Of a stretch of DNA of 32,771 nt, positions 1 to 32,771 are shown piece by piece. This stretch comes from an uncultured Pseudomonadota bacterium. GTDB taxonomy: Bacteria > Pseudomonadota > Gammaproteobacteria > Steroidobacterales > Steroidobacteraceae. Position numbers and translations under genes: made by a program. The notes under the pieces were generated by a model. It was not told the DNA's origin and searched no databases. It saw only the letters and a list, made by a program, of their open reading frames with translations. The stretch lies in NCBI GenBank assembly GCA_903898785.1, contig CAIUGU010000048.1:1-32771 (forward strand), written 5' to 3'. Each line of letters starts with the position of its first letter. Position 1 is the first letter of the stretch.

Positions 1-27
1 CAGTTTGTAGATCCAGCCAGCCTTCAC
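1..27 (-). CDS. 5' end of an unidentified membrane or secreted protein (partial)
   Basis: Only nine codons are inside the window. They begin at a GTG (27-25 on the reverse strand) and read VKAGWIYKL, which looks like the start of a signal peptide or membrane anchor. The frame is open back to the stop codon of the upstream gene at 100-102, so it would be the third gene of the leftward redox operon. There is no strong ribosome binding site. An ATG at 83-81 opens a different frame that stops after 19 codons. A cytochrome c would suit the context, but nothing visible proves it. Confidence 0.3.
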
Positions 28-99
28 AAGCGTCGCCGCTCTGCCGTCCCTGCCTGCCCCGCTGCATCCAGCCCCGCGTTCATGATCGAACGGCCCGCG

Positions 100-1056
100 T
101 CAGTACGCGTGCACGGCAATGACATGCACGATGCCGGCCAGCAACATCATGAAGAACAGGGGCAGATGAAGCAGGTGCCACCAGGAGAACAGGTTTGCAT
201 AGGTCTGGTACTCGGCGACGCTCTGGGTCGCAGACATGCGCCTGTCGATGTAGGCGTACGCAGTCTCCTGCAATCGATGCCGGTGCGTATCGATCAACTG
301 GGACTGGGTCGCAGCCGCCGCCAACGCCAGTCGGACGTGCCTGTTCAGCCGCAATCGACCACGCAGACTGCACCACGCTACATAGAACGGGCGGACCAGT
401 GCCGGGCAACGCTGCGTGTCTTCGATGAGAAGCTTCTCCTCGATGGCGAGACGCGTGAGCAGCTCCGGCATGAACTTGACCGAGAGCGAGACGGTCCGCA
501 GCCGTTCGGCATTGGCCTTCAGTTCCGTGTAGTTGGTTTCGTGGCCGGTCAGGCCGTCATGGATCTTGGCGTAGAAGTACCGCCCCAGCATCCCGCTGCC
601 GAGGATCACCAGCATCAACGTGAGCGCCACGTTGCTGTTGGCGGCACCGAGCGAGAAGTTGGAATGGAAAAGGACGCAGACTGGCCCGACCACACCGAAG
701 ACGATATGTACCTGGAACCATGCCCTGACCGATCCCAGCTTCGAGAACCATGCGACGCGCTTGCGCAGCGGATAAAGCAGCAGAACCAGCATGAGACTGC
801 CACCGGTGATGCCCAGCGCATAGCCGAGGCCGCTCGCCGGCGAAATGAAGCGTTCTGTCGGGAATCGCCACCCGGCCAGCACGACCAGCGCAGCCAGGGT
901 CAGGAAGACACTGTCGAACGTGATCCAGCGCCGCCAGCGAGGCGGGAGCGGGACGTCACTTCGCGTGCTCCCCGCGCGCGCGCTCGGCATGGATGCGACA
1001 GCAGCAGGTGTCGGCACGGGGCTTCGCAATGCAGGAGGCTGCCGGGATGCTTGCAT
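100..1056 (-). CDS. Multi-histidine integral membrane protein, probable b-type cytochrome
   Basis: This is a 318-residue inner-membrane protein with a proline-rich cytoplasmic start and about five hydrophobic helices (roughly 47-63, 76-96, 115-131, 142-162 and 295-315). Histidines are placed as in b-heme proteins: H117 and H131 are 14 apart in one helix, and H294/H297 and H311/H316 lie in the last helix. That pattern recalls ferric-reductase-like or cytochrome b561-type heme binding. A soluble segment of about 130 residues lies between helices 4 and 5. The gene starts 6 bp after the CcmI-like gene stops, so the two are surely co-transcribed, and it faces an Fe-S flavoprotein across the divergent promoter region. 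The inference is transmembrane electron transfer. Heme binding is not proven and I know no named family for it. The upstream Shine-Dalgarno is weak, which suggests translational coupling. Confidence 0.82.
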   Translation of the reverse strand: MQASRQPPALRSPVPTPAAVASMPSARAGSTRSDVPLPPRWRRWITFDSVFLTLAALVVLAGWRFPTERFISPASGLGYALGITGGSLMLVLLLYPLRKRVAWFSKLGSVRAWFQVHIVFGVVGPVCVLFHSNFSLGAANSNVALTLMLVILGSGMLGRYFYAKIHDGLTGHETNYTELKANAERLRTVSLSVKFMPELLTRLAIEEKLLIEDTQRCPALVRPFYVAWCSLRGRLRLNRHVRLALAAAATQSQLIDTHRHRLQETAYAYIDRRMSATQSVAEYQTYANLFSWWHLLHLPLFFMMLLAGIVHVIAVHAY

Positions 1057-1062
1057 GGCCGC

Positions 1063-2316
1063 CTACCCGATGACCCGGTCGATCTTGATGCTGACGCGCT
1101 GGGTTGCGCGAGTACTGATGTCGCTGCTGCTGCCCTGCAAGTCGCCCGAAGCTGCAATGGCCTGTCCGCTGCGCGACAACCGTGCTTCGATGGTGACCTG
1201 CTGGAAGTCAGACAGTCGCCGGTCAGGCAGCATGGCCTGGGAGTCGTCGAGCACGAAGTGGGCCGGCCACTTCCCCGCAGCGACCTTCGAAACGGCGAGC
1301 GGTGGCCCCGACGCGTTCGGCGCCTTTGCGTAGATGAAGAGCGTCATGCCGTCGCTGATCCTGCTGCGCAGCGCCGGGTCAAGGTCGACACTTCCTTCGA
1401 TTCGCGCGCTCGCTGCTGGTGCAACGACCAGAGCCGCCTGCGCCGCACCACCACCCTTCGCCAAGGACTCCGCCTCTGAGATATTTGCGTCGATGATCCT
1501 CACGTCGGGCGACTCGGCGGGCAATACACCACGCAACTGCCGCCACAGGCGTGTCGCGTCGGCGTACCGCTTCTCCTGGATTGCGAGCGTGGCCTTGAGC
1601 CACAGCGCCTTCGGGTGGCTCCCGTGGATCTTGAGCGCCTGGTCAATGGCTTCCGCGGACTTGCCCTGCAGCGTGCCCCCGGGCTGCGATGCAAGGGCAT
1701 CGGCGTAGTCCGCCCACGAATCCGCAGTCATGCCCTTGAGGGCCCGCACCTGCTCGTACGCCGCGACGGCCCCCGCGAAATCACGCTGCGTGCGCTTGAG
1801 GGAAGCCATCTGCAGCCATGAGTCGACATCCTTCGGCGAAGCATTGATGTTCTGCTCATAGGTTGAGAGGTCACTCGCCACTTGCGCAACGGGCTGCGAA
1901 GAACCGGGAACGCGATGTGCTCTTGCGTCGGAGGCCGCCGCCGCATCGCCGACGAACTCATAGGACTGTGCGAGGAGATCCCATTCCGCATCTGTGCCCC
2001 CGCTGGCCGCCAGCTTGTCGGCGAGCTTCTGTATCGACGCCTCCATCGAGCCCACTTGTCCGTTCACGCCTGGTGCGACACCTGCATGCGGAGCGCTTGC
2101 GCCGGCAGACTCAAGCATGTCCGGGCGGCCCAGTTGCAGGTAGATCGCAAGTGCGAGACCGAACAACCCGACGGCCGCTGCAGCACCTACCCAGACGCGC
2201 CGACCCGGCTTCGTGGGCTCGTCTGCGAGGCCACGCAGGACGGGCAGCAATACGAAACTGGCAGCAATGCCTGCTGCGAATCCGGCAATGACCCAGAATG
2301 CCGCCGCCAATGACAT
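1063..2316 (-). CDS. CcmI/CycH-like TPR protein
   Basis: The 417-residue protein has two N-terminal membrane helices (about 3-28 and 41-61), a TPR region (about 110-290) and a C-terminal domain. That domain shows the hallmarks of the cytochrome c biogenesis factor CcmI/CycH: a run of the type FIYAKAP..GPPLAV, then FVLDDSQAM, then LSDFQQVTIEARLSRSG, then GDLQG. CcmI holds apocytochrome c for heme ligation, so this protein probably chaperones a c-type cytochrome or other extracytoplasmic redox partner. No ccmA-H genes are nearby, so it is more likely a dedicated paralogue than the general maturation gene. The ATG has a good ribosome site (AAGGGAGA, about nine bases upstream). It is first in the leftward operon and is followed after 6 bp by the histidine-rich membrane protein. 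Confidence 0.88.
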   Translation of the reverse strand: MSLAAAFWVIAGFAAGIAASFVLLPVLRGLADEPTKPGRRVWVGAAAAVGLFGLALAIYLQLGRPDMLESAGASAPHAGVAPGVNGQVGSMEASIQKLADKLAASGGTDAEWDLLAQSYEFVGDAAAASDARAHRVPGSSQPVAQVASDLSTYEQNINASPKDVDSWLQMASLKRTQRDFAGAVAAYEQVRALKGMTADSWADYADALASQPGGTLQGKSAEAIDQALKIHGSHPKALWLKATLAIQEKRYADATRLWRQLRGVLPAESPDVRIIDANISEAESLAKGGGAAQAALVVAPAASARIEGSVDLDPALRSRISDGMTLFIYAKAPNASGPPLAVSKVAAGKWPAHFVLDDSQAMLPDRRLSDFQQVTIEARLSRSGQAIAASGDLQGSSSDISTRATQRVSIKIDRVIG

Positions 2317-2658
2317 ACGATGAATCTCCCTTTTTCGTGGATCGCGCGACTACCGGGCCTATCGCCGGCACTGCGCGACACGACTGCTTGTTATGTAGAA
2401 GTGTAGAAGGAAGGATGCAGAGGATGCATTGGAAATTTCGTGACTTGTCTGGACCTGACGACAGTTACAGGTGTCGACTTCATCACAAAGCTTGCGTTTG
2501 TCGCCCACAACCAACGTATGCGGCCATTGCTCATCGTTGCGGGCACGTATCTTAAGGATCATTAAGAAGGATCCGCTCATACTCGATTCGCAACATGAGC
2601 GCTTCACCATGTTGCGATTCATTCGCAGGTCACGTCGTAGAGAAGCGCAGGGGACACC
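2317..2658. promoter_or_regulatory. Divergent control region without a convincing gene
   Basis: About 340 bp separate the leftward CcmI-like gene from the rightward genes. No frame looks coding. It contains short tandem repeats (TGTAGAAG twice at 2394-2409; GGATGCA at 2413-2419 and 2422-2428), a small dyad CTTAA-N6-TTAAG at 2551-2566 and a long dyad at 2585-2620. It is visibly more A/T-rich than the flanking genes, as expected for two back-to-back promoters. I could not place -35/-10 boxes with confidence. Confidence 0.5.
2585..2620. repeat. 13-bp inverted repeat, operator or RNA hairpin candidate
   Basis: The arms at 2585-2597 and 2608-2620 are complementary at 12 of 13 positions around a 10-bp spacer; the core GCAACATG/CATGTTGC is perfect. 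It lies about 40 bp before the first rightward start codon. There is no T-run after it, so it is not an intrinsic terminator. It is either a binding site for a dimeric regulator or a leader hairpin for the rightward redox genes. Confidence 0.6.
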
Positions 2659-2838
2659 ATGAAAATGCTACTGGCTTCGCGACCGCGTCCCGTGATTGCC
2701 TGTAGCTTTGCGAGGCGTGAGGGTGCCTTGCTTGCCGGCATTCATGCCGGCCTGGCTCGAGTCGTGAACGACGCTTACAGGGGCGTCCCGGGCCAACAGC
2801 ATCGATACGCAATGACCTGGACTGGATCTTCGGAGTGA
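2659..2838 (+). CDS. Possible 59-residue leader or small protein
   Basis: This short open frame starts at an ATG with a fair ribosome site (AGGGGA, five bases upstream). It ends at a TGA lying two bases before the GTG (2841) chosen for the downstream flavoprotein. The product begins MKMLLASRPRPVIACSF and is Arg/Gly-rich with no recognisable domain or clear membrane segment. Its position suggests a translationally coupled leader or small subunit. Codon use is not decisively coding, so it may be chance. The alternative is that this stretch is simply 5' untranslated leader. Confidence 0.28.
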   Translation: MKMLLASRPRPVIACSFARREGALLAGIHAGLARVVNDAYRGVPGQQHRYAMTWTGSSE

Positions 2839-2840
2839 GT

Positions 2841-4148
2841 GTGCTCGACTACGCCATCTACATCGTGCCGGTGCTGCTGCTGTGGCTGTGGTTCGGTCGA
2901 CAGCGCGCCCACACGGTTCGCAAGAGCGCGGAAGCAAAGTCGGAGTCGGTCAGTGCCGGTCTGATCGAACCGCCGTCGTTGCATCCCATCATCGATCCTT
3001 CGCTGTGCATCGGCTGCGGCTCGTGCGTGAAGGCATGCCCTGAACAGCCCCATCACCACGTGCTCGGCCTCATCAACGGCAAGGCGGAGCTGGTAAGCCC
3101 GACTGATTGCATCGGGCACGGCGCTTGCCGTACTGCCTGCCCCGTCGGCGCCATCACGCTCGTGTTCGGCACCGAGAAGCGCGGCATCGATATCCCCGTG
3201 CTGACCCCCCATTTCGAGACGAATGTGCCTGGCATCTTCGTTGCCGGCGAATTGGGTGGCATGGGCCTGATCCGGAATGCACTGGAGCAAGGCAAGCAGG
3301 CTGTCGACATGATCGAGCGGCATCGCCCTCGCGGTGGCGCCGATCTGCTTGACCTCATCATCGTCGGTGCAGGCCCCGCTGGATTCGCGGCGTCGCTTTC
3401 GGCCCTCTCGAAGCGCCTTCGATTCGTGACGCTGGAGCAGGAATCGCTCGGCGGCTGTGTTTTTCAGTATCCCCGCGCCAAGCTCGTCATGACGCAGGCC
3501 GCCACGCTGCCGATCGTGGGCAAGGTGAACTTCACCCGCACGACCAAGGAAGAACTGCTGGAGTTCTGGCAGGGCATCGAACGGAAGTCGGGAGTGACGA
3601 TCAACTACAAGGAGCGCGTCGAGGGCCTCCATAACCTGGGTGCCGATGGGTTCCTGGTGAAGACTCCGAAGGGCGAATACCGCGCGAGGAACGTGCTGCT
3701 TGCGATCGGCCGACACGGTACGCCGCGCAAGCTCGGCGTTCCCGGCGAGGACCTGCCCAAGGTTGTCTACAGGCTGATCGATCCCGAGCAATACAAGGGC
3801 CAGCACGTTCTGGTGGTCGGCGGCGGAGACAGCGCGCTCGAGGCCGCAGCCAGCATCGCTGAGCTGGGTGGAACGCAGGTCACGCTGTCCTATCGAGGCG
3901 ATGCCTTTGATCGGGCCAAGCCCCGCAACCGCGACCGCATTGCGGCCGCCGCAAAGTCGGGTGAGCTTGATCTGCGCCTCGGCTCCACGGTCAAACAGAT
4001 TGCCATGGACCGCGTGTTCCTCGACCACAATGGCAAGAAGCTTGAGGTCGAGAACCAGTCGGTGATCGTCAATGCGGGCGGGGTGCTCCCCAATGACTTC
4101 CTGCGCCAGGCGGGCGTCGCCGTGGAGACCAAGTATGGCACTGTGTAA
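2841..4148 (+). CDS. Membrane-anchored 4Fe-4S / FAD-NAD(P) oxidoreductase
   Basis: The predicted product is 435 residues. It has an N-terminal membrane anchor (about 5-18), then a ferredoxin-type domain with CIGCGSCVKACP (C56, C59, C62, C66) and CIGHGACRTACP (C90, H93, C96, C100), where the second motif has His in place of one Cys. A strand reading VPGIFVAGE (129-137), usually at the C-terminal end of thioredoxin-reductase-like flavoproteins, comes next. It precedes the FAD-binding GAGPAG (176-181) and the NAD(P)-binding GGGDSA (327-332), so the fold looks permuted. The role inferred is passing electrons between NAD(P)H or ferredoxin and membrane carriers. GTG 2841 is preferred because GGAG lies five bases upstream; the in-frame GTG at 2835 has no ribosome site. 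The 3' end overlaps the ankyrin gene by 14 bp. Confidence 0.9.
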   Translation: MLDYAIYIVPVLLLWLWFGRQRAHTVRKSAEAKSESVSAGLIEPPSLHPIIDPSLCIGCGSCVKACPEQPHHHVLGLINGKAELVSPTDCIGHGACRTACPVGAITLVFGTEKRGIDIPVLTPHFETNVPGIFVAGELGGMGLIRNALEQGKQAVDMIERHRPRGGADLLDLIIVGAGPAGFAASLSALSKRLRFVTLEQESLGGCVFQYPRAKLVMTQAATLPIVGKVNFTRTTKEELLEFWQGIERKSGVTINYKERVEGLHNLGADGFLVKTPKGEYRARNVLLAIGRHGTPRKLGVPGEDLPKVVYRLIDPEQYKGQHVLVVGGGDSALEAAASIAELGGTQVTLSYRGDAFDRAKPRNRDRIAAAAKSGELDLRLGSTVKQIAMDRVFLDHNGKKLEVENQSVIVNAGGVLPNDFLRQAGVAVETKYGTV

Positions 4149-6126
4149 TGCAATCCCCGCTTGCGCACTTGGACTGTTGCTGGCCAGCGCCCCAGCGTTT
4201 TCCGCAGCGCCTGTGGAACGCGCCTACTCCGCTCAGCCCACGCTGGAGCCTGCGCAGGCTGCCATCCGCCTGAAGAATTTCCAGGGTGCCGTCCACCTGC
4301 TCGAGCCACTTGCCGCGAAAGGCAATGCCAATGCCTCGTATCTGCTGGCTTGCCTGTACCGGGCCGGGCTCGGAGTCACTGCCGATGCAGCCAAGGAGAG
4401 AGCGTTGCTGCTTGCTGCTGCAGAGGCAAAGCACGCGGGCGCGGCGTACAGCCTGGCTCTGTCCCTGCAGAAGACAGAACCTCGCGATCTGCAGGCAGCA
4501 CGCCGCTGGCTGGAAGCGGCAGCCGGGGCGGGTCATGAACTCGCCGCTCGTTCGCTGCGACGGGGTGGGCTACCACTCGAGTTCCTGCCCGCGTCGGATC
4601 TGCGGTCTCCTTCAGCACGACTGGCTGCCCTCTGGTCAGCCGCGGACAACGACGACGTTGGAACGCTGGCTCTGTTCGCAAGCCCGGATCTGATGTCGGC
4701 CACCGATGCGTTCGGGAGAGATGCCCTCATGCGCGCCGCCGAGACAGGTGCGGAGAACGCCCTGCAGGAACTGCTCCGCTTGCGTGCGGACGCCAGGCGA
4801 GCAGACCAGTTCGGCACCACTGCCCTCATGCTTGCATCTGCCTCGGACAGCACAGCGGCGGTCGACGCGTTGATCAAGGCAGGCGCCGACGTCGATGCCC
4901 AGGACAAGGTTGGCAATACCCCGCTCATGTATGCGGCGCGTGCCGAGCGGGCCGACAACGTCAAACCCCTGCTTGCTGCGATGGCAACAACCGGCAAGTT
5001 CAATGCGCGCAACAGCGAAGGCTGGACAGCCCTCGATTGGGCTCTTCGCGGCAAGTCCGTGCCTGTCATGCAGTCGCTGCGCGCCGCAGGTATCACTGCC
5101 ACCGTCGCCAGGCGGGAAGCGTCGACTCCTTCCGTTCCCCTGCGTCGTGCCGCGAAGGCGGACCTTTACGCGGGCTGGTCCGACCTCGGAGTAGGTGCAA
5201 CGCGACCGGCGACCGGGATGCTGAGCACGCTGATGGCAACGCCGCGCGCGGAACCCTGGTCTGCGCAAGACCTGCGGACGGCCTTGGGCAATGCAGTGAT
5301 GACTGGCAATGCGGACGCGGCGGAAAAGCTGCTGCCCCTGGTGCGGAACCTGGGCGGAGTTGCGGTCGCCCCCCAATGGTTCGACTGGGCCATCCGCCAC
5401 GGCGACCTCAAGATGGTGCAGTTGCTGATGCCGGCAGCCGCGAAGAGCCCGGCCGCGAGTGGCGTCGAGGCGCCCGTGCTGGCAGCGACGCGTGCCAGGA
5501 AAGCGGAGGTGCTGAAGGCACTGCTTGATGCCGGCTTCGACGCGGGAGCCACCGACAAGCCCGGACGCGATGCGCTGATGGTCGCCACGCGTTCGAGGCA
5601 ACCGGAACTCGTCACGCTGCTGCTGGAACGCCGCGGTGATCCGTCGCGCGTTGACGAAGACGGACGCTCGGCACTGTGGTACGCCGCGCAGACCGGATTC
5701 ACCGAGGCGGCCCGGCAACTCCTGCGACCGGAGAACCGGGATCGGGAAGACAAGCAGGGAACCTCGCCGCTCTCCATCGCAGCGAGTGAAGGCCGGACGG
5801 AAGTCGTCGCGCTGCTGCTTGCCAACGGCGTCGCAGCGAACTCGACCGGGCGCAACGGCATGTCGCCCTTGCTGATGGCAGCGGCGAACGGACATGCTGC
5901 GACGGTGCAACGCTTGCTGGCGGCAGGCGCTACTGCGAATGCCACCGGCGCCTTCGGGAACACGCCGCTGATCGTCGCCACCCGGAACGGGCACCTGCCG
6001 GTCGTGAAGCTGCTGCTCGCCGCCGGTGCCAATCGCCAGTTGCGGAACAACGACGGCAATTCCGCGAGCGACCTTGCCGATGCGCTTGGCAACGTGGAAC
6101 TCGAGGCCCTCCTGAAGGCTGGCTAG
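4135..6126 (+). CDS. Secreted Sel1-like / ankyrin-repeat protein
   Basis: The product is 663 residues. It starts with a signal peptide (MALCNAIPACALGLLL, cleavage near AFSA), then two or three Sel1/TPR-like units (about 35-150, ASYLLACLYRAGLGV and similar). Two blocks of ankyrin repeats follow (about 170-320 and 385-660), with typical G.TALM.A...G...V..LL..GA units. Such proteins are periplasmic binding scaffolds. The ATG lies 14 bp inside the end of the flavoprotein gene behind GGAGA, so the two are translationally coupled. An earlier in-frame ATG at 4072 would extend deep into the flavoprotein gene and bury the signal peptide, so it is rejected. Partnership with the redox proteins is inferred from coupling only. 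There is no enzymatic domain. Confidence 0.92.
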   Translation: MALCNAIPACALGLLLASAPAFSAAPVERAYSAQPTLEPAQAAIRLKNFQGAVHLLEPLAAKGNANASYLLACLYRAGLGVTADAAKERALLLAAAEAKHAGAAYSLALSLQKTEPRDLQAARRWLEAAAGAGHELAARSLRRGGLPLEFLPASDLRSPSARLAALWSAADNDDVGTLALFASPDLMSATDAFGRDALMRAAETGAENALQELLRLRADARRADQFGTTALMLASASDSTAAVDALIKAGADVDAQDKVGNTPLMYAARAERADNVKPLLAAMATTGKFNARNSEGWTALDWALRGKSVPVMQSLRAAGITATVARREASTPSVPLRRAAKADLYAGWSDLGVGATRPATGMLSTLMATPRAEPWSAQDLRTALGNAVMTGNADAAEKLLPLVRNLGGVAVAPQWFDWAIRHGDLKMVQLLMPAAAKSPAASGVEAPVLAATRARKAEVLKALLDAGFDAGATDKPGRDALMVATRSRQPELVTLLLERRGDPSRVDEDGRSALWYAAQTGFTEAARQLLRPENRDREDKQGTSPLSIAASEGRTEVVALLLANGVAANSTGRNGMSPLLMAAANGHAATVQRLLAAGATANATGAFGNTPLIVATRNGHLPVVKLLLAAGANRQLRNNDGNSASDLADALGNVELEALLKAG

Positions 6127-6168: not shown

Positions 6169-6474
6169 TCACTTCCTCGGGCCGAACAATGCCTCCAATG
6201 CGGCGCGCGCCTGATCCAGCTCCTGCTGGTTCCGGGGCGTATGGGCCCCGGGCCGGGGCTTGAAGTAATCGCAGAAGTTCGCCCGCTCCTTGTCCTTCAC
6301 TTCCTCCGCAATAGGCTCGCGACACTGCTTGGCAACGGTGGTCTTGTAGAACTCGCACAGGCGGCACGCATGTAGCGCCGCCCTGCAGGTGCGGCACTCA
6401 TCGAAGCGGCTGAGCGGCAGGCTCAGGTCGGCGATGGACGCCCCGCAACTCCAGCAAACAAGGCCCTGCGACAT
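6169..6474 (-). CDS. Small Cys-rich (zinc-ribbon-like) protein
   Basis: The predicted product is a 101-residue soluble protein. It has Cys pairs CWSCGA near the N-terminus, CRTC about 20 residues later, then CRLCEFY, and further single cysteines in KQCREP and NFCDYFKP. The spacing suggests one or two zinc ribbons or another metal site. The start is the ATG at 6474, with AGGGGGAGCC directly upstream; longer in-frame starts would run into the kup coding region. The C-terminal 30 residues are charged and helical. I recognise no named function. It is transcribed divergently from kup and convergently with the ankyrin gene, with 42 bp between the stop codons. Confidence 0.78.
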   Translation of the reverse strand: MSQGLVCWSCGASIADLSLPLSRFDECRTCRAALHACRLCEFYKTTVAKQCREPIAEEVKDKERANFCDYFKPRPGAHTPRNQQELDQARAALEALFGPRK

Positions 6475-6616
6475 GGCTCCCCCTGTTGGCCGCTCGTTCC
6501 GGCTGGACCGACGTACGCGGATGATCGCATGGAAAGACGACGAAGGCAGGACTACACTCCGCGCCTGAACCGGGATAGCCCGCCCCCACGACCCTACAGA
6601 TACGCCCAGACGCCTC

Positions 6617-8578
6617 TTGCCGCGCCTCATCAACCTGGACCTGCCGGGACCCTCTTCAGCGGGCGAAGCCGGTGCCCCCGGCCATCCCGATGCACCCGCG
6701 TCCGCGCATGACGCGAGCCATGCCAAGGGCGGCGCTGCCATCGTCGTCGGCGCATTGGGCGTCGTCTTTGGCGACATCGGTACCAGCCCCCTCTACGCGC
6801 TGCGCGAATGCTTCTCGCCGATACACGGCATTGCCGTCACGCCCGACAACATCCTCGGGCTGTTGTCGCTGATCTTCTGGTGCCTCGCGCTGATCATCAC
6901 GGTGAAGTATGTCGGCATCGTGCTCGAAGCGGACAACCGGGGCGAGGGCGGCATCCTCGCACTCAGCGCGCTGCTGGTCGGCGCGTCGCGCAACTGGCGC
7001 ATCTGGACGCCGGTCAGTGCCGTGGGGCTGTTCGGCGCAGCCCTGTTCTTCGGCGACGGCTTCATCACGCCCGCCATCTCGGTGATGAGCGCAATCGAGG
7101 GGTTGGCGGTCGCGGCGCCCAACCTGCACGGCGCTGTCATGCCAGGCGCGGCGTTGATCCTGACGTGCCTGTTCTTCGCGCAGAAGCGCGGGACCGCGGT
7201 CATGGGCCGGGCATTCGGCCCCGTCATCATTACATGGTTCGCGACGATCTCGGTGCTCGGCATCCTCGGCATCCTCAAGGCACCCGCGGTGCTGGCGGCC
7301 ATCAATCCAGCGCACGCCGCACGGTTCTTCATGGACAACGGCGTGGCCGGTTTCATCACGCTGTCAGCGGTATTCCTGTGCGTCACCGGGGGCGAAGCGC
7401 TGTACGCGGACATGGGCCACTTCGGCCGCGGTCCGATCCGTCGCGGCTGGCTGCTCGTCGTGCTGCCTGCACTGCTCCTCAATTACTTCGGGCAAGGCGC
7501 GCTGCTGCTCACGAATCCGGAAGCCATCCAGAATCCGTTCTACCTGCTCGCGCCGGGCTGGGCGCTCATACCGCTGATCCTGCTAGCCACTGCTGCCACG
7601 GTGATCGCGTCCCAGGCTGTCATCTCCGGCGTCTTCTCGATTGCGAGGCAGGCCATCAACATGGGATACCTGCCGCGGCTGCGGGTGCTGCACTCCTCGG
7701 AACACTCGATCGGCCAGGTTTACGTACCCGCCGTCAACTGGCTGTTGTTCGTCTGCACGCTGGCGCTGGTCGTCCTGTTCGGCTCGTCCAGCGCGCTCGC
7801 CGGCGCCTACGGCATCGCGATCGTGTGCGACATGGTAGTCACGTCGATCATGGTCATCATGCTGCTCAGGATCGCCGATGCTAGGGCCAATCGCGCCGTC
7901 ATCGGCGTCTTGTCGATCATCCTCGTCATCGAGCTGTGCTTCTTCGGGTCGAACATCCTGAAGCTCGACGATGGCGGCTGGATCCCGCTGGCGATCGCGT
8001 CAGGCATCTATCTGCTGATGAGCACGTGGCGCGAAGGCCGACGCGCGCTGGCGTGGCTCGTGGCCAAGCAGCAGGTACCGGTGCGCGAGTTCCTCGCCTC
8101 GATCGCCGAACAGAAGCCGAATGCAGCTCCGGGTACTGCCGTCTATCTCGTCAGCGACGCAGGCGGCATCCCGCGTGCACTCTCGCAGAACCTGCGGTTC
8201 AACGGCGTGCTGCACGAGCGGATCATCCTGCTCACGTTTGTCAGCACGGAACTGCCGCGCGTGCCTGCGGACAAGCGGGTGGACACGCACACGATCGCAC
8301 CCGGCATCTACAGGGTCATCGCACGCTACGGGTTCATGGAAGTGCCGGACATCCTGTCGGCCCTGCGGGGTGCCGATGCGAAGGGCGTCGAGTTCCGGCC
8401 CGACGAAACCACCTACGTGATCGGCCGCGAGAACCCGGTGTTTTCCGGCAACTCCGGCATGCCGTTGTGGCGCAAGCGGCTGTTCGCCGTCATGGGCCGC
8501 AACAGCCAGCTCGCGTCCATCCACTTCGGCGTGCCAGCCCATCGCGTGGTCGAGATCAGCAGCCAGGTCAATCTCTGA
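6617..8578 (+). CDS. kup: Low-affinity potassium transporter Kup
   Basis: The 653-residue inner-membrane protein belongs to the KUP/HAK/KT family, which takes up K+ with protons. The family signature GVVFGDIGTSPLYALRE is at the start of the first helix. About twelve hydrophobic helices follow, and after them comes a C-terminal cytoplasmic domain of about 150 residues. Length is close to the usual 620-680. The only in-frame start before the first helix is the TTG at 6617, so the gene seems to use TTG; the first 35 residues are a Pro/Ala/His-rich extension. It stands alone between the Cys-rich gene (divergent) and pgl (convergent, with the stop codons directly adjacent at 8578/8579). Confidence 0.97.
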   Translation: MPRLINLDLPGPSSAGEAGAPGHPDAPASAHDASHAKGGAAIVVGALGVVFGDIGTSPLYALRECFSPIHGIAVTPDNILGLLSLIFWCLALIITVKYVGIVLEADNRGEGGILALSALLVGASRNWRIWTPVSAVGLFGAALFFGDGFITPAISVMSAIEGLAVAAPNLHGAVMPGAALILTCLFFAQKRGTAVMGRAFGPVIITWFATISVLGILGILKAPAVLAAINPAHAARFFMDNGVAGFITLSAVFLCVTGGEALYADMGHFGRGPIRRGWLLVVLPALLLNYFGQGALLLTNPEAIQNPFYLLAPGWALIPLILLATAATVIASQAVISGVFSIARQAINMGYLPRLRVLHSSEHSIGQVYVPAVNWLLFVCTLALVVLFGSSSALAGAYGIAIVCDMVVTSIMVIMLLRIADARANRAVIGVLSIILVIELCFFGSNILKLDDGGWIPLAIASGIYLLMSTWREGRRALAWLVAKQQVPVREFLASIAEQKPNAAPGTAVYLVSDAGGIPRALSQNLRFNGVLHERIILLTFVSTELPRVPADKRVDTHTIAPGIYRVIARYGFMEVPDILSALRGADAKGVEFRPDETTYVIGRENPVFSGNSGMPLWRKRLFAVMGRNSQLASIHFGVPAHRVVEISSQVNL

Positions 8579-29231: not shown

Positions 29232-29361
29232 GCCCCCCCCTTTTCGCCCCCCTCGGCCGTTGCCTCCGCGAACCCCGACCCCGCGGAAGTCCCGTCTCGA
29301 CGGGGGGCGCAAACCCAGCTACGCTTGACTTTATTTGGCGCGGCTGCCGGAACTCACTGAA

Positions 29362-31605
29362 TTGAAAAGAATTGTCAAGAATCCGGCAGGTCGCGGCCTG
29401 CTTGCGGGAGCCTTGGGCACCGCGTTTCTGGCCAGCATGAGCCCCTCCATTGCCGGTGCGGCCGAGGCCGCCGCGCCCAAGTCCTTTGCGATCGTCCGCA
29501 TCCCCGAAGCCGACGCACCCAAGATCGACGGGCGGCTCGACGAGGCCTCCTGGAAGCAAGCCGCTGTCGTCAGCGATCTGGGCCAGTTCCAGCAGCGGGT
29601 CGGCGAGGCCACCGAGAAGTCCGAGTTCTACGTCATGTACGACAAGGACTACCTGTACGTCGGCGCGAGGCTGTACGACTCGGATCCGAAGGGCGTCCGC
29701 TCGTCGATCCTGCGCTACGGCGAGCGCCTCAACAACGAGGACAAGATCGCCATCATCCTCGATACGTTCAACGACAAGCGCAACGGCTACCGCTTCGAGG
29801 TCAACACCTTCGGCGTCCGCGACGACGCGCTGTACCTCGACACGACGCAGACGCAGTGGGACTGGGACGGCATCTACCTCGCCGATGCGGTCATCGACGA
29901 CCAGGGCTGGACGGCGGAAATGGCCATCCCGTTCAAGACGCTGTCGTTCGATGCCGCCACGGACACGTGGGGCATCAACTTCAACCGGTCGATCAGCCGC
30001 AAGAACGAACGCGATGGCTGGGTGTTCCGCAACCGCAACCAGAACCCGTCGAGCTCGGGTGAAGTCACCGGCATCCGCGATCTCGACCAGGGCCTGGGCC
30101 TCGACGTCGTGCCGTCCGTGAGCTTCCGGGGCGAGAAAGCCTTTCGCGCCGGCACGTCCGAGGAGAACATCGAGCCCTCGCTGGACGTCTATTACAAGAT
30201 CACGCCGGGCCTCAATGCCGCACTGACCTTCAACACCGACTTCTCGGCCACCGAAGTGGACGACAGGCAGGTGAACCTGTCGCAGTTCAGCCTGTTCTTC
30301 CCGGAGAAACGCGGGTTCTTCCTGCGCGAGTCGGACATCTTCGAGTTCGGCCGACTCAAGGGCGGCGACATTCCGTTCACGATCAATCCGACCTTCGCAC
30401 GGTCCTCGCTCGAGAACGGGCGGCCGTTCTTCTCGCGCAGCGTCGGACTGTCGGCCACCGGCCAGCCCGTCGACCTCGTCGCGGGACTCAAGCTGTCCGG
30501 CCGCGTCGGCGGGTTCAACGTCGGCGCGCTGGCCATCCGCCAGGACGAGCAGGTCGGCGTCGACGCGCAGAACCTGTTCGTCGGGCGCGCCGTGATGAAC
30601 GTGCTCACCGAGTCGAGCCTCGGCGTCATCGCCACCAAGGGCAACCCGCGGGCGAACCTGGACAACTCGGTGATGGGCGTCGACTTCCGCTATGTGAACA
30701 ACCGCCTCCCCAGCAATCGCAGCCTCGAAGGCGAACTGTGGGTGCAGAAGAGCGAGACGGAGGGAGTGACCGGCGACGACATGGCCTTCGGTGCCCGCCT
30801 GCGCAGCCCGAACAACGACGGCTGGCGGGGCGGCCTCGGACTGAAGGAACTGCAGGCCAACTTCAATCCGGCGATGGGCTACGTGAACCGCCGTGGCGTC
30901 CGTGGCTATACGGGCGAGGCCGGCTATCTGAAGCGCTGGCCGGTCGGCTTCACGCAAGGCATCTACAGCGGCATCGACTTCGAGCAGTACAACCGGACCC
31001 TGGATGACAGCCTGCAGAGCAGGCTCGTGACCTTCCGCTTCATGGATTTCTACGGCCGCCAGAATGACCAGGCGAAGATCCGCGCCTATCGCAACGAAGA
31101 GGTGCTGCGCACGCCGTTCCTGATCTCCCGCGGCATCACCGTGCCTGTCGGCGACTACAAGTTCGACGAGTACGAAGTCGAACTGGAAGCGACCGGTTCG
31201 CGTGCGTTGTCCGGCAAGGTCAACTACCGCGCCGGCGACTTCTATTCGGGCGAGCGCTGGCGCGCCACCGGCAAGATCCTGTGGAAGGCGAGCCCGCATT
31301 TCTGGTTCACCGGCAACTACGAATACAACGATGTCACGCTGCCGCAGGGCGACTTCATCGTGCGACTCGCATCGGTGCGTACCGACGTGATGTTCAACGC
31401 GGACTGGTCCTGGACCACGCTGGTCCAGTACGACAACGTGTCGGACAGCATTGCAGCCCACAGCCGCCTGCACTGGATCCCGCAGGCCGGCCGCGACATG
31501 TATCTCGTGTTCAACCACAACCTGCTCGACGAGAACGAGGACGGTACCTTCCGCTCGCTCCGCGCGGATGCCACGGTCAAGTTAAACTACACGTTCAGGT
31601 TCTAG
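29362..31605 (+). CDS. DUF5916 outer-membrane protein with CBM9-like N-terminus
   Basis: The 747-residue exported protein has a signal peptide (N-terminus LKRIVKNPAGRG, cleavage near IAGAAEA). A CBM9/DOMON-like beta-sandwich (about 40-220) includes APKIDGRLDEASWKQA, EFYVMYDKDYLYVGARLYDS, RNGYRFEVNTFGVRDDALY and WTAEMAIPFKTLSF. The long DUF5916 part has INTDFSATEVD-type and SLFFPEKRGFFLRE motifs, then alternating beta strands ending LNYTFRF, a C-terminal Phe typical of barrels inserted by BamA. Role unknown, perhaps glycan binding or export at the outer membrane. TTG 29362 gives a normal signal peptide n-region; a TTG at 29335 is the alternative. Neither has a strong ribosome site. A paralogue follows in tandem. 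Confidence 0.9.
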   Translation: MKRIVKNPAGRGLLAGALGTAFLASMSPSIAGAAEAAAPKSFAIVRIPEADAPKIDGRLDEASWKQAAVVSDLGQFQQRVGEATEKSEFYVMYDKDYLYVGARLYDSDPKGVRSSILRYGERLNNEDKIAIILDTFNDKRNGYRFEVNTFGVRDDALYLDTTQTQWDWDGIYLADAVIDDQGWTAEMAIPFKTLSFDAATDTWGINFNRSISRKNERDGWVFRNRNQNPSSSGEVTGIRDLDQGLGLDVVPSVSFRGEKAFRAGTSEENIEPSLDVYYKITPGLNAALTFNTDFSATEVDDRQVNLSQFSLFFPEKRGFFLRESDIFEFGRLKGGDIPFTINPTFARSSLENGRPFFSRSVGLSATGQPVDLVAGLKLSGRVGGFNVGALAIRQDEQVGVDAQNLFVGRAVMNVLTESSLGVIATKGNPRANLDNSVMGVDFRYVNNRLPSNRSLEGELWVQKSETEGVTGDDMAFGARLRSPNNDGWRGGLGLKELQANFNPAMGYVNRRGVRGYTGEAGYLKRWPVGFTQGIYSGIDFEQYNRTLDDSLQSRLVTFRFMDFYGRQNDQAKIRAYRNEEVLRTPFLISRGITVPVGDYKFDEYEVELEATGSRALSGKVNYRAGDFYSGERWRATGKILWKASPHFWFTGNYEYNDVTLPQGDFIVRLASVRTDVMFNADWSWTTLVQYDNVSDSIAAHSRLHWIPQAGRDMYLVFNHNLLDENEDGTFRSLRADATVKLNYTFRF

Positions 31606-31820
31606 TGGACTGCTGCACGGGTCTCGCGACCGGGACGAGCTGCCTCCATGCGGTGCAGGGAACACGATCGGGTGCCACTTTACGGTTCATTTCGCAGTTT
31701 ACCGGGCCCGCCCGCGCGGACGGGCCGCGGGACGAATCCGGTCTGGTACCATTGCGCCCGCTTCCGGTCGCCTCCAGCAGGAGTGTCGGCCGGCTCAACT
31801 GGATTCTTGCCGGATCGAAC
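31606..31820. promoter_or_regulatory. Spacer between the tandem DUF5916 genes
   Basis: About 215 bp without a gene. It contains a GC-rich dyad GGCCCG...CGGGCC around a 10-base loop in the middle (about 31708-31730), without a following T-run. It is long enough to hold a separate promoter for the second copy. No clear boxes were assigned. Confidence 0.35.
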
Positions 31821-32771
31821 ATGAAGAAACGCCCTGGGATCGTAGCGTCCCGCTCCCTCCTGCTGTCCCGAGTATCGGCCCTGGCCGCAATCGGCGTGGC
31901 TGCACTGGCCCTGTCAACCGGGGCCTGGGCTGCGGAAGTCGCCCCCAAGTCCTTCGGCATCAAGCGGATCACCCGGCAGGAAGCCCCGAAGATCGACGGC
32001 CGCATCGACGATGCCTCGTGGCAGAAGGCCGCGGTGATCGACGACTTCAAGCAACTCCAGCAGATCGAGCACGCCGACATCACCGAGAAGATGATCGTGT
32101 ACGTGATGCACGACGAGGACATGCTCTACGTCGCGGCAAGGCTGTACGACTCGTCCCCTGACCAGATCACGGCCAACATCCTGCGCCAGGGCGAGCGCAT
32201 GAACAACGAGGACAAGTTCGCCGTCATCCTCGATAGCTTCAATGACAAGCGCAACGGCTATCGCTTCGAGGTCAATCCCAACGGCATCCGCGACGACGCG
32301 CTGTACCTCGATACCACGCAGCTGCAGTGGGACTGGGATGGCCTTTACTACGCGAAGGCGGCCCGCGACAGCGAGGGCTGGACGGCGGAGATGGCCATCC
32401 CGTTCAAGACCTTGTCCTTTGACCCCGCCGGCAGCACATGGGGCATCAACTTCCAGCGCCTGATCGCGCGCAAGAACGAGCGCGACGGCTGGGTCTATCG
32501 CAATCGCAACCAGAATCCGTCGAGTTCAGGCGAGGTGACGGGCCTTGCCGGCATGGAGCAGGGTCTCGGCCTCGATGTCGTGCCCTCCGTCAGCTTCCGG
32601 CAGAACAAGGATCACGTGAACGACACCAGCGAGTTCAAGGTGGAACCGTCGCTGGATGTGTACTACAAAGTCACGACCGGCATGAACGCCTCCCTGACCA
32701 TCAACACCGATTTCTCGGCGACCGAAGTGGATAACCGCCAGGTCAACCTGTCGCGCTTCAGCCTGTTCTTC
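31821..32771 (+). CDS. Second DUF5916 outer-membrane protein (partial, 3' end outside window)
   Basis: The first 317 codons are present. A signal peptide (MKKRPGIVASRSLLLSRVSA, cleavage near GAWAAE) is followed by the same CBM9-like domain and start of DUF5916 as in the gene before it. Shared runs include KIDGR(L/I)D(E/D)ASW, DKRNGYRFEVN, WTAEMAIPFKTLSFD, NRNQNPSSSGEVTG, GLGLDVVPSVSFR and INTDFSATEVD/FNTDFSATEVD, so the two arose by tandem duplication. Their signal peptides and first 30 mature residues differ more. The frame is open to the window end with no stop. The ATG start is clear. Function as for its paralogue; unlike that copy it uses a standard ATG. Confidence 0.93.
   Translation, partial: MKKRPGIVASRSLLLSRVSALAAIGVAALALSTGAWAAEVAPKSFGIKRITRQEAPKIDGRIDDASWQKAAVIDDFKQLQQIEHADITEKMIVYVMHDEDMLYVAARLYDSSPDQITANILRQGERMNNEDKFAVILDSFNDKRNGYRFEVNPNGIRDDALYLDTTQLQWDWDGLYYAKAARDSEGWTAEMAIPFKTLSFDPAGSTWGINFQRLIARKNERDGWVYRNRNQNPSSSGEVTGLAGMEQGLGLDVVPSVSFRQNKDHVNDTSEFKVEPSLDVYYKVTTGMNASLTINTDFSATEVDNRQVNLSRFSLFF

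Follow-up and report, generated by a model that had tools for sequence, protein, structure and literature searches.

A membrane-anchored iron-sulphur flavoprotein accompanies the inner-membrane end of PCC3-type porin-cytochrome clusters

Porin-cytochrome clusters of the type named PCC3 were described in Gallionellaceae, Leptothrix and Amphritea by He et al. (2017; PMC5566968). According to the main text of that paper they have four components: a porin, an extracellular cytochrome (median 34 haems), a periplasmic cytochrome (median 21 haems) and a five-helix inner-membrane protein (IMP), which carries an SGXXG motif and two WX3HX13H motifs and which the published model links to the quinone pool. 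The products of these clusters are among the most haem-rich proteins known and are spread over many environmental Proteobacteria, without a demonstrated function or direction of electron flow; proven extracellular electron transfer was not found for any PCC3 in the main texts of the literature on them. Here we analyse a window of 32,771 bp, the complete contig CAIUGU010000048.1 (C48; base 1 is the contig end) of a metagenome-assembled Steroidobacteraceae genome (3.15 Mb, 77.7% complete), in which positions 1-6126 hold the cytoplasmic-membrane end of a PCC3 conduit together with a membrane-anchored Fe-S flavoprotein, which we call FSFL. This flavoprotein is a near-constant fifth component of PCC3 and the new element of the present work, being absent from the PCC3 literature text. 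No FSFL-like flavoprotein stands among the four components in the main texts; as these were compared without their figures and supplements, priority for the link between FSFL and PCC3 is uncertain.

Other described systems resemble parts of the locus. NADPH oxidases and the FRD family, exemplified by SpNOX (8qt6), have HX13H pairs on two helices, two transmembrane b haems and input from a flavoprotein, a combination that the window locus may share. It differs from them in that the flavin part is a separate TrxR-type Fe-S protein, that the IMP has five helices and a long hairpin predicted to be cytoplasmic, and that the acceptor would be a multihaem cytochrome. The Fre-MsrQ-MsrP relay of E. coli is grouped with the NADPH oxidases for the same features. 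YpdA/Bdr and the TrxR-type ferredoxin-NADP reductases (7a7b, 5ygq) share with FSFL a core for FAD and NAD(P), but in FSFL this core is circularly permuted and shares its chain with an Fe-S domain and a transmembrane (TM) helix. PCC4, as presented in the main text of He et al. (2017), likewise has an IMP with related motifs adjoining redox proteins and multihaem cytochromes; it differs from the window type, as does a cluster in three distant relatives considered below, in that no 21-haem cytochrome is seen.

The locus agrees with the published PCC3 in its IMP motifs, its 21-haem and giant cytochromes, its putative barrel-type protein and its gene order, whilst FSFL, an ankyrin-repeat protein and a CcmI-like protein are additions to what the main text of He et al. 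(2017) lists. The IMP has about 300 residues and five TM helices, with SGXXG on TM4 and WX3HX13H on both TM3 and TM5. The periplasmic cytochrome is represented in the window by its first codons, which on the minus strand (27..1) read GTG AAG GCT GGC TGG ATC TAC AAA CTG and align with the start, GTG AGG GCA AGC TGG ATC TAC AGA CTG, of an entire gene with 21 CXXCH motifs in a same-genus reference genome (G001, 99% complete; 94% identity in FSFL and 83% in the IMP). There the gene (L046:12728-14293, 521 aa) is followed by one for a 962-aa protein with 34 CXXCH motifs, the giant and putatively extracellular cytochrome, and then by one for a 794-aa Cys-poor, barrel-type protein with SPOR and TPR matches. 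In the window's own genome the end of a second contig (C267) carries a giant cytochrome (cut, with at least 20 CXXCH motifs), again followed directly by the barrel-type protein, and a small lipoprotein-like protein. The order of genes in G001 suggests that the two contigs are adjacent, and the genome's own 21-haem gene would fall in the assembly gap between them, both contigs being evidently broken at repetitive haem genes. A further member of the family, locus L130, is that of Amphritea atlantica DSM 18887, where FSFL adjoins a cluster whose haem-motif counts, 63 and 21, are those given in the main text of He et al. (2017; PMC5566968) for the PCC3 of this strain. We therefore count the window locus as PCC3. 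The initial annotation had described four genes on two divergent units and a truncated further gene at the left edge, and had advised a look for CXXCH-rich genes leftward; all of these were found, and the next gene, that of the 21-haem cytochrome, passes its test of a neighbour related to redox chemistry. Its electron-transfer module is borne out by that neighbour and by the co-occurring genes, but the system is not self-contained as it had supposed: it forms the inner-membrane portion of PCC3, and the periplasmic, outer-membrane and putatively extracellular components are encoded past the end of the contig.

The association of FSFL with the IMP is close. A search with FSFL through a single genome for each species gave at least 523 relatives in Alpha-, Beta- and Gammaproteobacteria and under a few other record names, and gene neighbourhoods were counted in the best 80 of these. 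The IMP is visible in 69 of the 80 loci, 10 of the other 11 being cut by contig ends near FSFL. Where the neighbour of the IMP could be judged (60 loci), it is a haem protein with at least 10 motifs in 59 (55 by script, 4 with overlapping open reading frame (ORF) calls). When strong IMP matches were counted in an even draw of 274 Gammaproteobacteria genomes, 33 had both proteins, 2 had FSFL only, 1 had the IMP only and 238 had neither (Fisher p 5e-39); FSFL is thus present in 33 of the 34 genomes with a strong IMP match, and the last retains a fragment of it. The three genomes with one gene have truncated contigs or a reduced FSFL. Among the closest 59 genomes the set with FSFL and the set with the IMP are identical (15 and 15), and two IMPs occur together with two FSFLs in G090, G093 and G158. 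The distance matrices of FSFL and the IMP correlate with r 0.76, against 0.80 for the IMP and the 21-haem cytochrome, values that include the effect of kinship. The arrangement itself is found again across Proteobacteria, which makes it more than chance and bears out the expectation that the module's genes co-occur in other genomes. Unusual forms of FSFL were also seen. A complete genome (G091, L153) has it as two ORFs of 294 and 171 aa beside CXXCH-rich proteins (21, 23 and 69 motifs), so that the gene is either in decay or makes a protein of two chains, and in L152 (G247) an ORF on the opposite strand is inserted at a reduced FSFL.

FSFL matches the Pfam families Pyr_redox_3 (6e-42) and 4Fe-4S dicluster (2e-11), and its two Fe-S motifs are C58xxC61xxC64xxxC68 and C92xxH95xxC98xxxC102. 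In an alignment of 38 sequences H95, which takes the place of one cysteine, is invariant and C61 is sometimes Ser or Ala; the same alignment shows no CXXC and no conserved cysteine beyond the Fe-S motifs, C208 being variable. Because a single N-terminal helix is followed by basic residues, the positive-inside rule predicts that the protein's domains are cytoplasmic and held by this one-helix anchor. The core matches YpdA (24% identity, 263 residues) and TrxR in sequence and in predicted structure, and it retains GGGDSAxE and R354/R360/K362 of TrxR-type NADPH domains. With these residues kept and CXXC lacking, FSFL is therefore, to judge from its sequence, an electron transferase rather than a reductase of disulfides. 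Identity as a thioredoxin or bacillithiol disulfide reductase was rejected on the scores of TIGR04018 (160 bits, cut-off 340) and TIGR01292 (70, cut-off 343) and on the missing CXXC.

The core of FSFL is also circularly permuted, in that the FAD-binding segment (residues 105-166) precedes it, whereas in TrxR and the ferredoxin-NADP reductases the segment comes after it. Since the gain in hidden Markov model score was weak (about 0.6 bits), the permutation was retested with a profile of the segment, which in unpermuted relatives (L062-L064) gave matches of 5e-11 to 3e-10 on the far side of the core; in the permuted order, FETNVPGIF of FSFL is identical to the corresponding stretch of the Rhodopseudomonas palustris ferredoxin-NADP reductase (5ygq). 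This permutation and the invariant histidine among the Fe-S ligand positions are of interest to enzymology. The unpermuted relatives themselves are flavo-Fe-S proteins of 790-824 aa encoded directly before a five-helix IMP-like protein in three distant genomes (G044, G013 and G041, respectively), with 10-haem and 7-10-haem proteins after it. They differ from FSFL further in having Fe-S domains at the C terminus, and the L062 member, the one scanned, has Pyr_redox, two cNMP-binding domains and C-terminal 4Fe-4S domains.

The initial annotation proposed that the membrane protein binds b haem, and the IMP is very probably a two-b-haem protein. Across 44 sequences W113/H117/H131, S154-G155-G158 and W293/H297/H311 are invariant, one histidine pair (H117/H131) lying on TM3 and the other (H297/H311) on TM5, and no cysteine is conserved. 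Two such HX13H pairs are the form of haem ligation described for FRD in the main text of He et al. (2017; PMC5566968). Scans of the Pfam and NCBIfam libraries assigned the IMP to no family, FRD (PF01794) giving no curated Pfam match, and a search of PDB sequences with the IMP profile returned chance coiled-coil matches only. In the AlphaFold2 model (pLDDT 82.5) helices span 47-64, 76-91, 110-131 and 139-165, a C-terminal helix ends at 317, and a long helical hairpin (about 168-288) stands between TM4 and TM5. Its basic residues predict a cytoplasmic location for the hairpin, which could there serve as a docking site for FSFL. In the matches of low rmsd that cover the helix bundle, the model superposes on SpNOX with Z 9.1 (rmsd 2.8 Å, 117 residues) and on cytochrome b561 (4o7g) with Z 8.4 (rmsd 3.0 Å, 117 residues), both Z values being middling for helical proteins.

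Two accessory proteins complete the locus. The CcmI-like protein matches Ig_CycH (PF23892; 3e-32, 110.9 against a cut-off of 27) and TPR_CcmH_CycH (PF23914; 1e-10, 41.9 against 42), and scores 15.7 with TIGR03142, under the cut-off of 29.3. These scores are compatible with the chaperone-like character first proposed for it. Six family genomes (G001, G003, G007, G010, G017 and G029) have a second CcmI/CycH beside PCC3 as well as a housekeeping copy elsewhere, which suggests a dedicated assembly factor rather than a carrier. It is present in 33 of the 80 loci. The ankyrin protein matches Ank_2 (4e-80) and, weakly, Sel1, and its ATG overlaps the FSFL stop by 14 nt. It adjoins FSFL in 56 of 72 testable loci, in 50 of these 56 with a start that overlaps or lies within 4 nt; that it is a scaffold is a guess.

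Taken together, this end of PCC3 probably works outward, FSFL passing electrons from NAD(P)H through the IMP to the 21-haem wire. FSFL would oxidise NAD(P)H, probably in the form of NADPH, and its FAD and two Fe-S clusters would conduct the electrons in turn to the b haem on the inner side of the IMP. From there they would cross the membrane to the outer b haem of the same protein and enter the 21-haem cytochrome, which would span the periplasm and supply both the barrel in the outer membrane and the giant cytochrome outside the cell. The CcmI paralogue would help in the insertion of haems, dozens of them, into the apocytochromes, and the ankyrin protein may serve as a periplasmic scaffold. 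Gene content, membership of PCC3, co-occurrence, the conserved cofactor sites and the permutation are shown by the sequences; the FSFL-IMP contact, the NAD(P)H partner, the outward direction and the roles of the CcmI and ankyrin proteins are what we infer from them, and an NAD(P)H flavoprotein as partner of the IMP offers a concrete rival to the quinone and iron-oxidation model of PCC3.

Several points weigh against outward flow from NAD(P)H through FSFL. In L152 (G247) FSFL is cut down to 115 aa, the Fe-S part alone; beside it the IMP is intact and a 21-haem gene is present. The preference for NADPH over NADH is drawn from two arginines. Foldseek with the IMP model alone gave no match under E 0.001, probably owing to the long hairpin insert, and the likeness to NOX and b561 came from a second structural look, its middling Z scores being of a size possible by chance for helical bundles; because of both, the haem assignment is drawn mainly from the invariant, equally spaced histidine pairs. 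The main text on Sideroxydans CL21 reports one PCC3 IMP raised in cells able to oxidise iron. Finally, the quinone link proposed in the main text of He et al. (2017; PMC5566968) stays compatible with all the data here.

The direction of flow can be argued on several grounds. Energetics favour outward electron flow from NAD(P)H. No link to RuBisCO was seen: RuBisCO was not found in the 99% complete G001, the enzyme is missing from most carriers of PCC3 in the window's own genus and among its other relatives, and the association of PCC3 with RuBisCO among relatives is not significant (p 0.26). In Sideroxydans ES-1, moreover, both PCC3 clusters are lower under Fe(II), according to the main text reporting them. 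For these reasons outward flow is favoured. A more far-reaching version makes PCC3 a 'bacterial NADPH oxidase', which would export electrons across the membrane at the expense of NADPH through a permuted TrxR-type Fe-S flavin subunit to a giant haem wire as acceptor, and would serve to dump reducing power outside the cell and not to oxidise iron; it is put forward tentatively, at clearly less than even chances.

The strongest alternative is that the IMP exchanges electrons with quinone and that flow is inward, with Fe(II), minerals or something else as the donor and FSFL as a side branch, for example a reverse supply to NAD(P)+. The model and the occurrence of PCC3 in iron oxidisers in the published main text (PMC5566968), the fold of the IMP, which is also like that of cytochrome b561, and the CL21 result speak for it; it does not account, however, for an FSFL that is almost obligatory, and sits badly with the ES-1 expression and with the scarcity of RuBisCO, so that we think it unlikely. 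Direct contact with NAD(P)H but in the inward sense, with low-potential extracellular donors reducing NAD(P)+ through FSFL, appears less likely still. All steps are reversible in principle, and Fe-S flavoproteins such as the ferredoxin-NADP reductases work both ways, but the electrons would have to climb to about -320 mV with the membrane potential opposing them, Fe(II)-type donors are too oxidising, and no coupling subunit is seen. Least credible is an assembly line in which FSFL, the IMP and CcmI give reductant (reduced thiols or haem iron) for apocytochrome maturation without a conducted current, since, despite the shared operon of the CcmI paralogue and the IMP and the kinship of FSFL to thioredoxin and bacillithiol reductases, the missing CXXC of FSFL disfavours a thiol relay, the IMP has no conserved cysteine to offer one, and CcmI is far less constant than FSFL and the IMP.

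The genes lie in two short divergent operons, the leftward one with the CcmI/CycH-like gene, the IMP gene and the cut gene, the rightward one with FSFL and the ankyrin gene (Table 1).

Table 1. Features of the PCC3 end of the window
Feature	Position	Strand	Basis
Start of periplasmic 21-haem cytochrome c gene, nine codons, GTG at 27..25	1..27	-	alignment to L046:12728-14293
IMP, 318 aa, five-helix membrane protein, probable two b haems	100..1056	-	invariant residues, AlphaFold2, PCC3 IMP motif
CcmI/CycH-like apocytochrome chaperone, TPR and Ig_CycH domain, probable PCC3-dedicated paralogue	1063..2316	-	Pfam matches, second copy in relatives
Divergent control region, 518 bp	2317..2834	.	partly conserved with G001
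FSFL, 437 aa, one N-terminal TM helix, two Fe-S motifs, permuted FAD/NAD(P) core	2835..4148	+	
Fe-S motifs of FSFL	3006..3140	+	38-sequence alignment
Transposed FAD-binding segment of FSFL (FETNVPGIFVAGELGGMG...)	3147..3332	+	segment profile; R. palustris ferredoxin-NADP reductase match
Secreted/periplasmic ankyrin-repeat protein, ATG at 4135	4135..6126	+	Ank_2

The control region is 79% identical to that of G001 across 202 bp; a consensus scan of it gave no sigma-70-like promoter, and a pattern scan no FNR-like or sigma-54-like pattern. Rfam and tRNA scans of the whole window gave no match. A small Cys-rich protein of no Pfam family (6169-6777, minus strand) is encoded beside a KUP-type potassium transporter, and it also adjoins the cluster in G001, with 87.5% identity. 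At the far end of the window (29335-32771) stand two consecutive secreted paralogues, of which one has about 756 aa and the other is truncated where the contig stops; they look as if an outer-membrane barrel-type protein had been duplicated in tandem.

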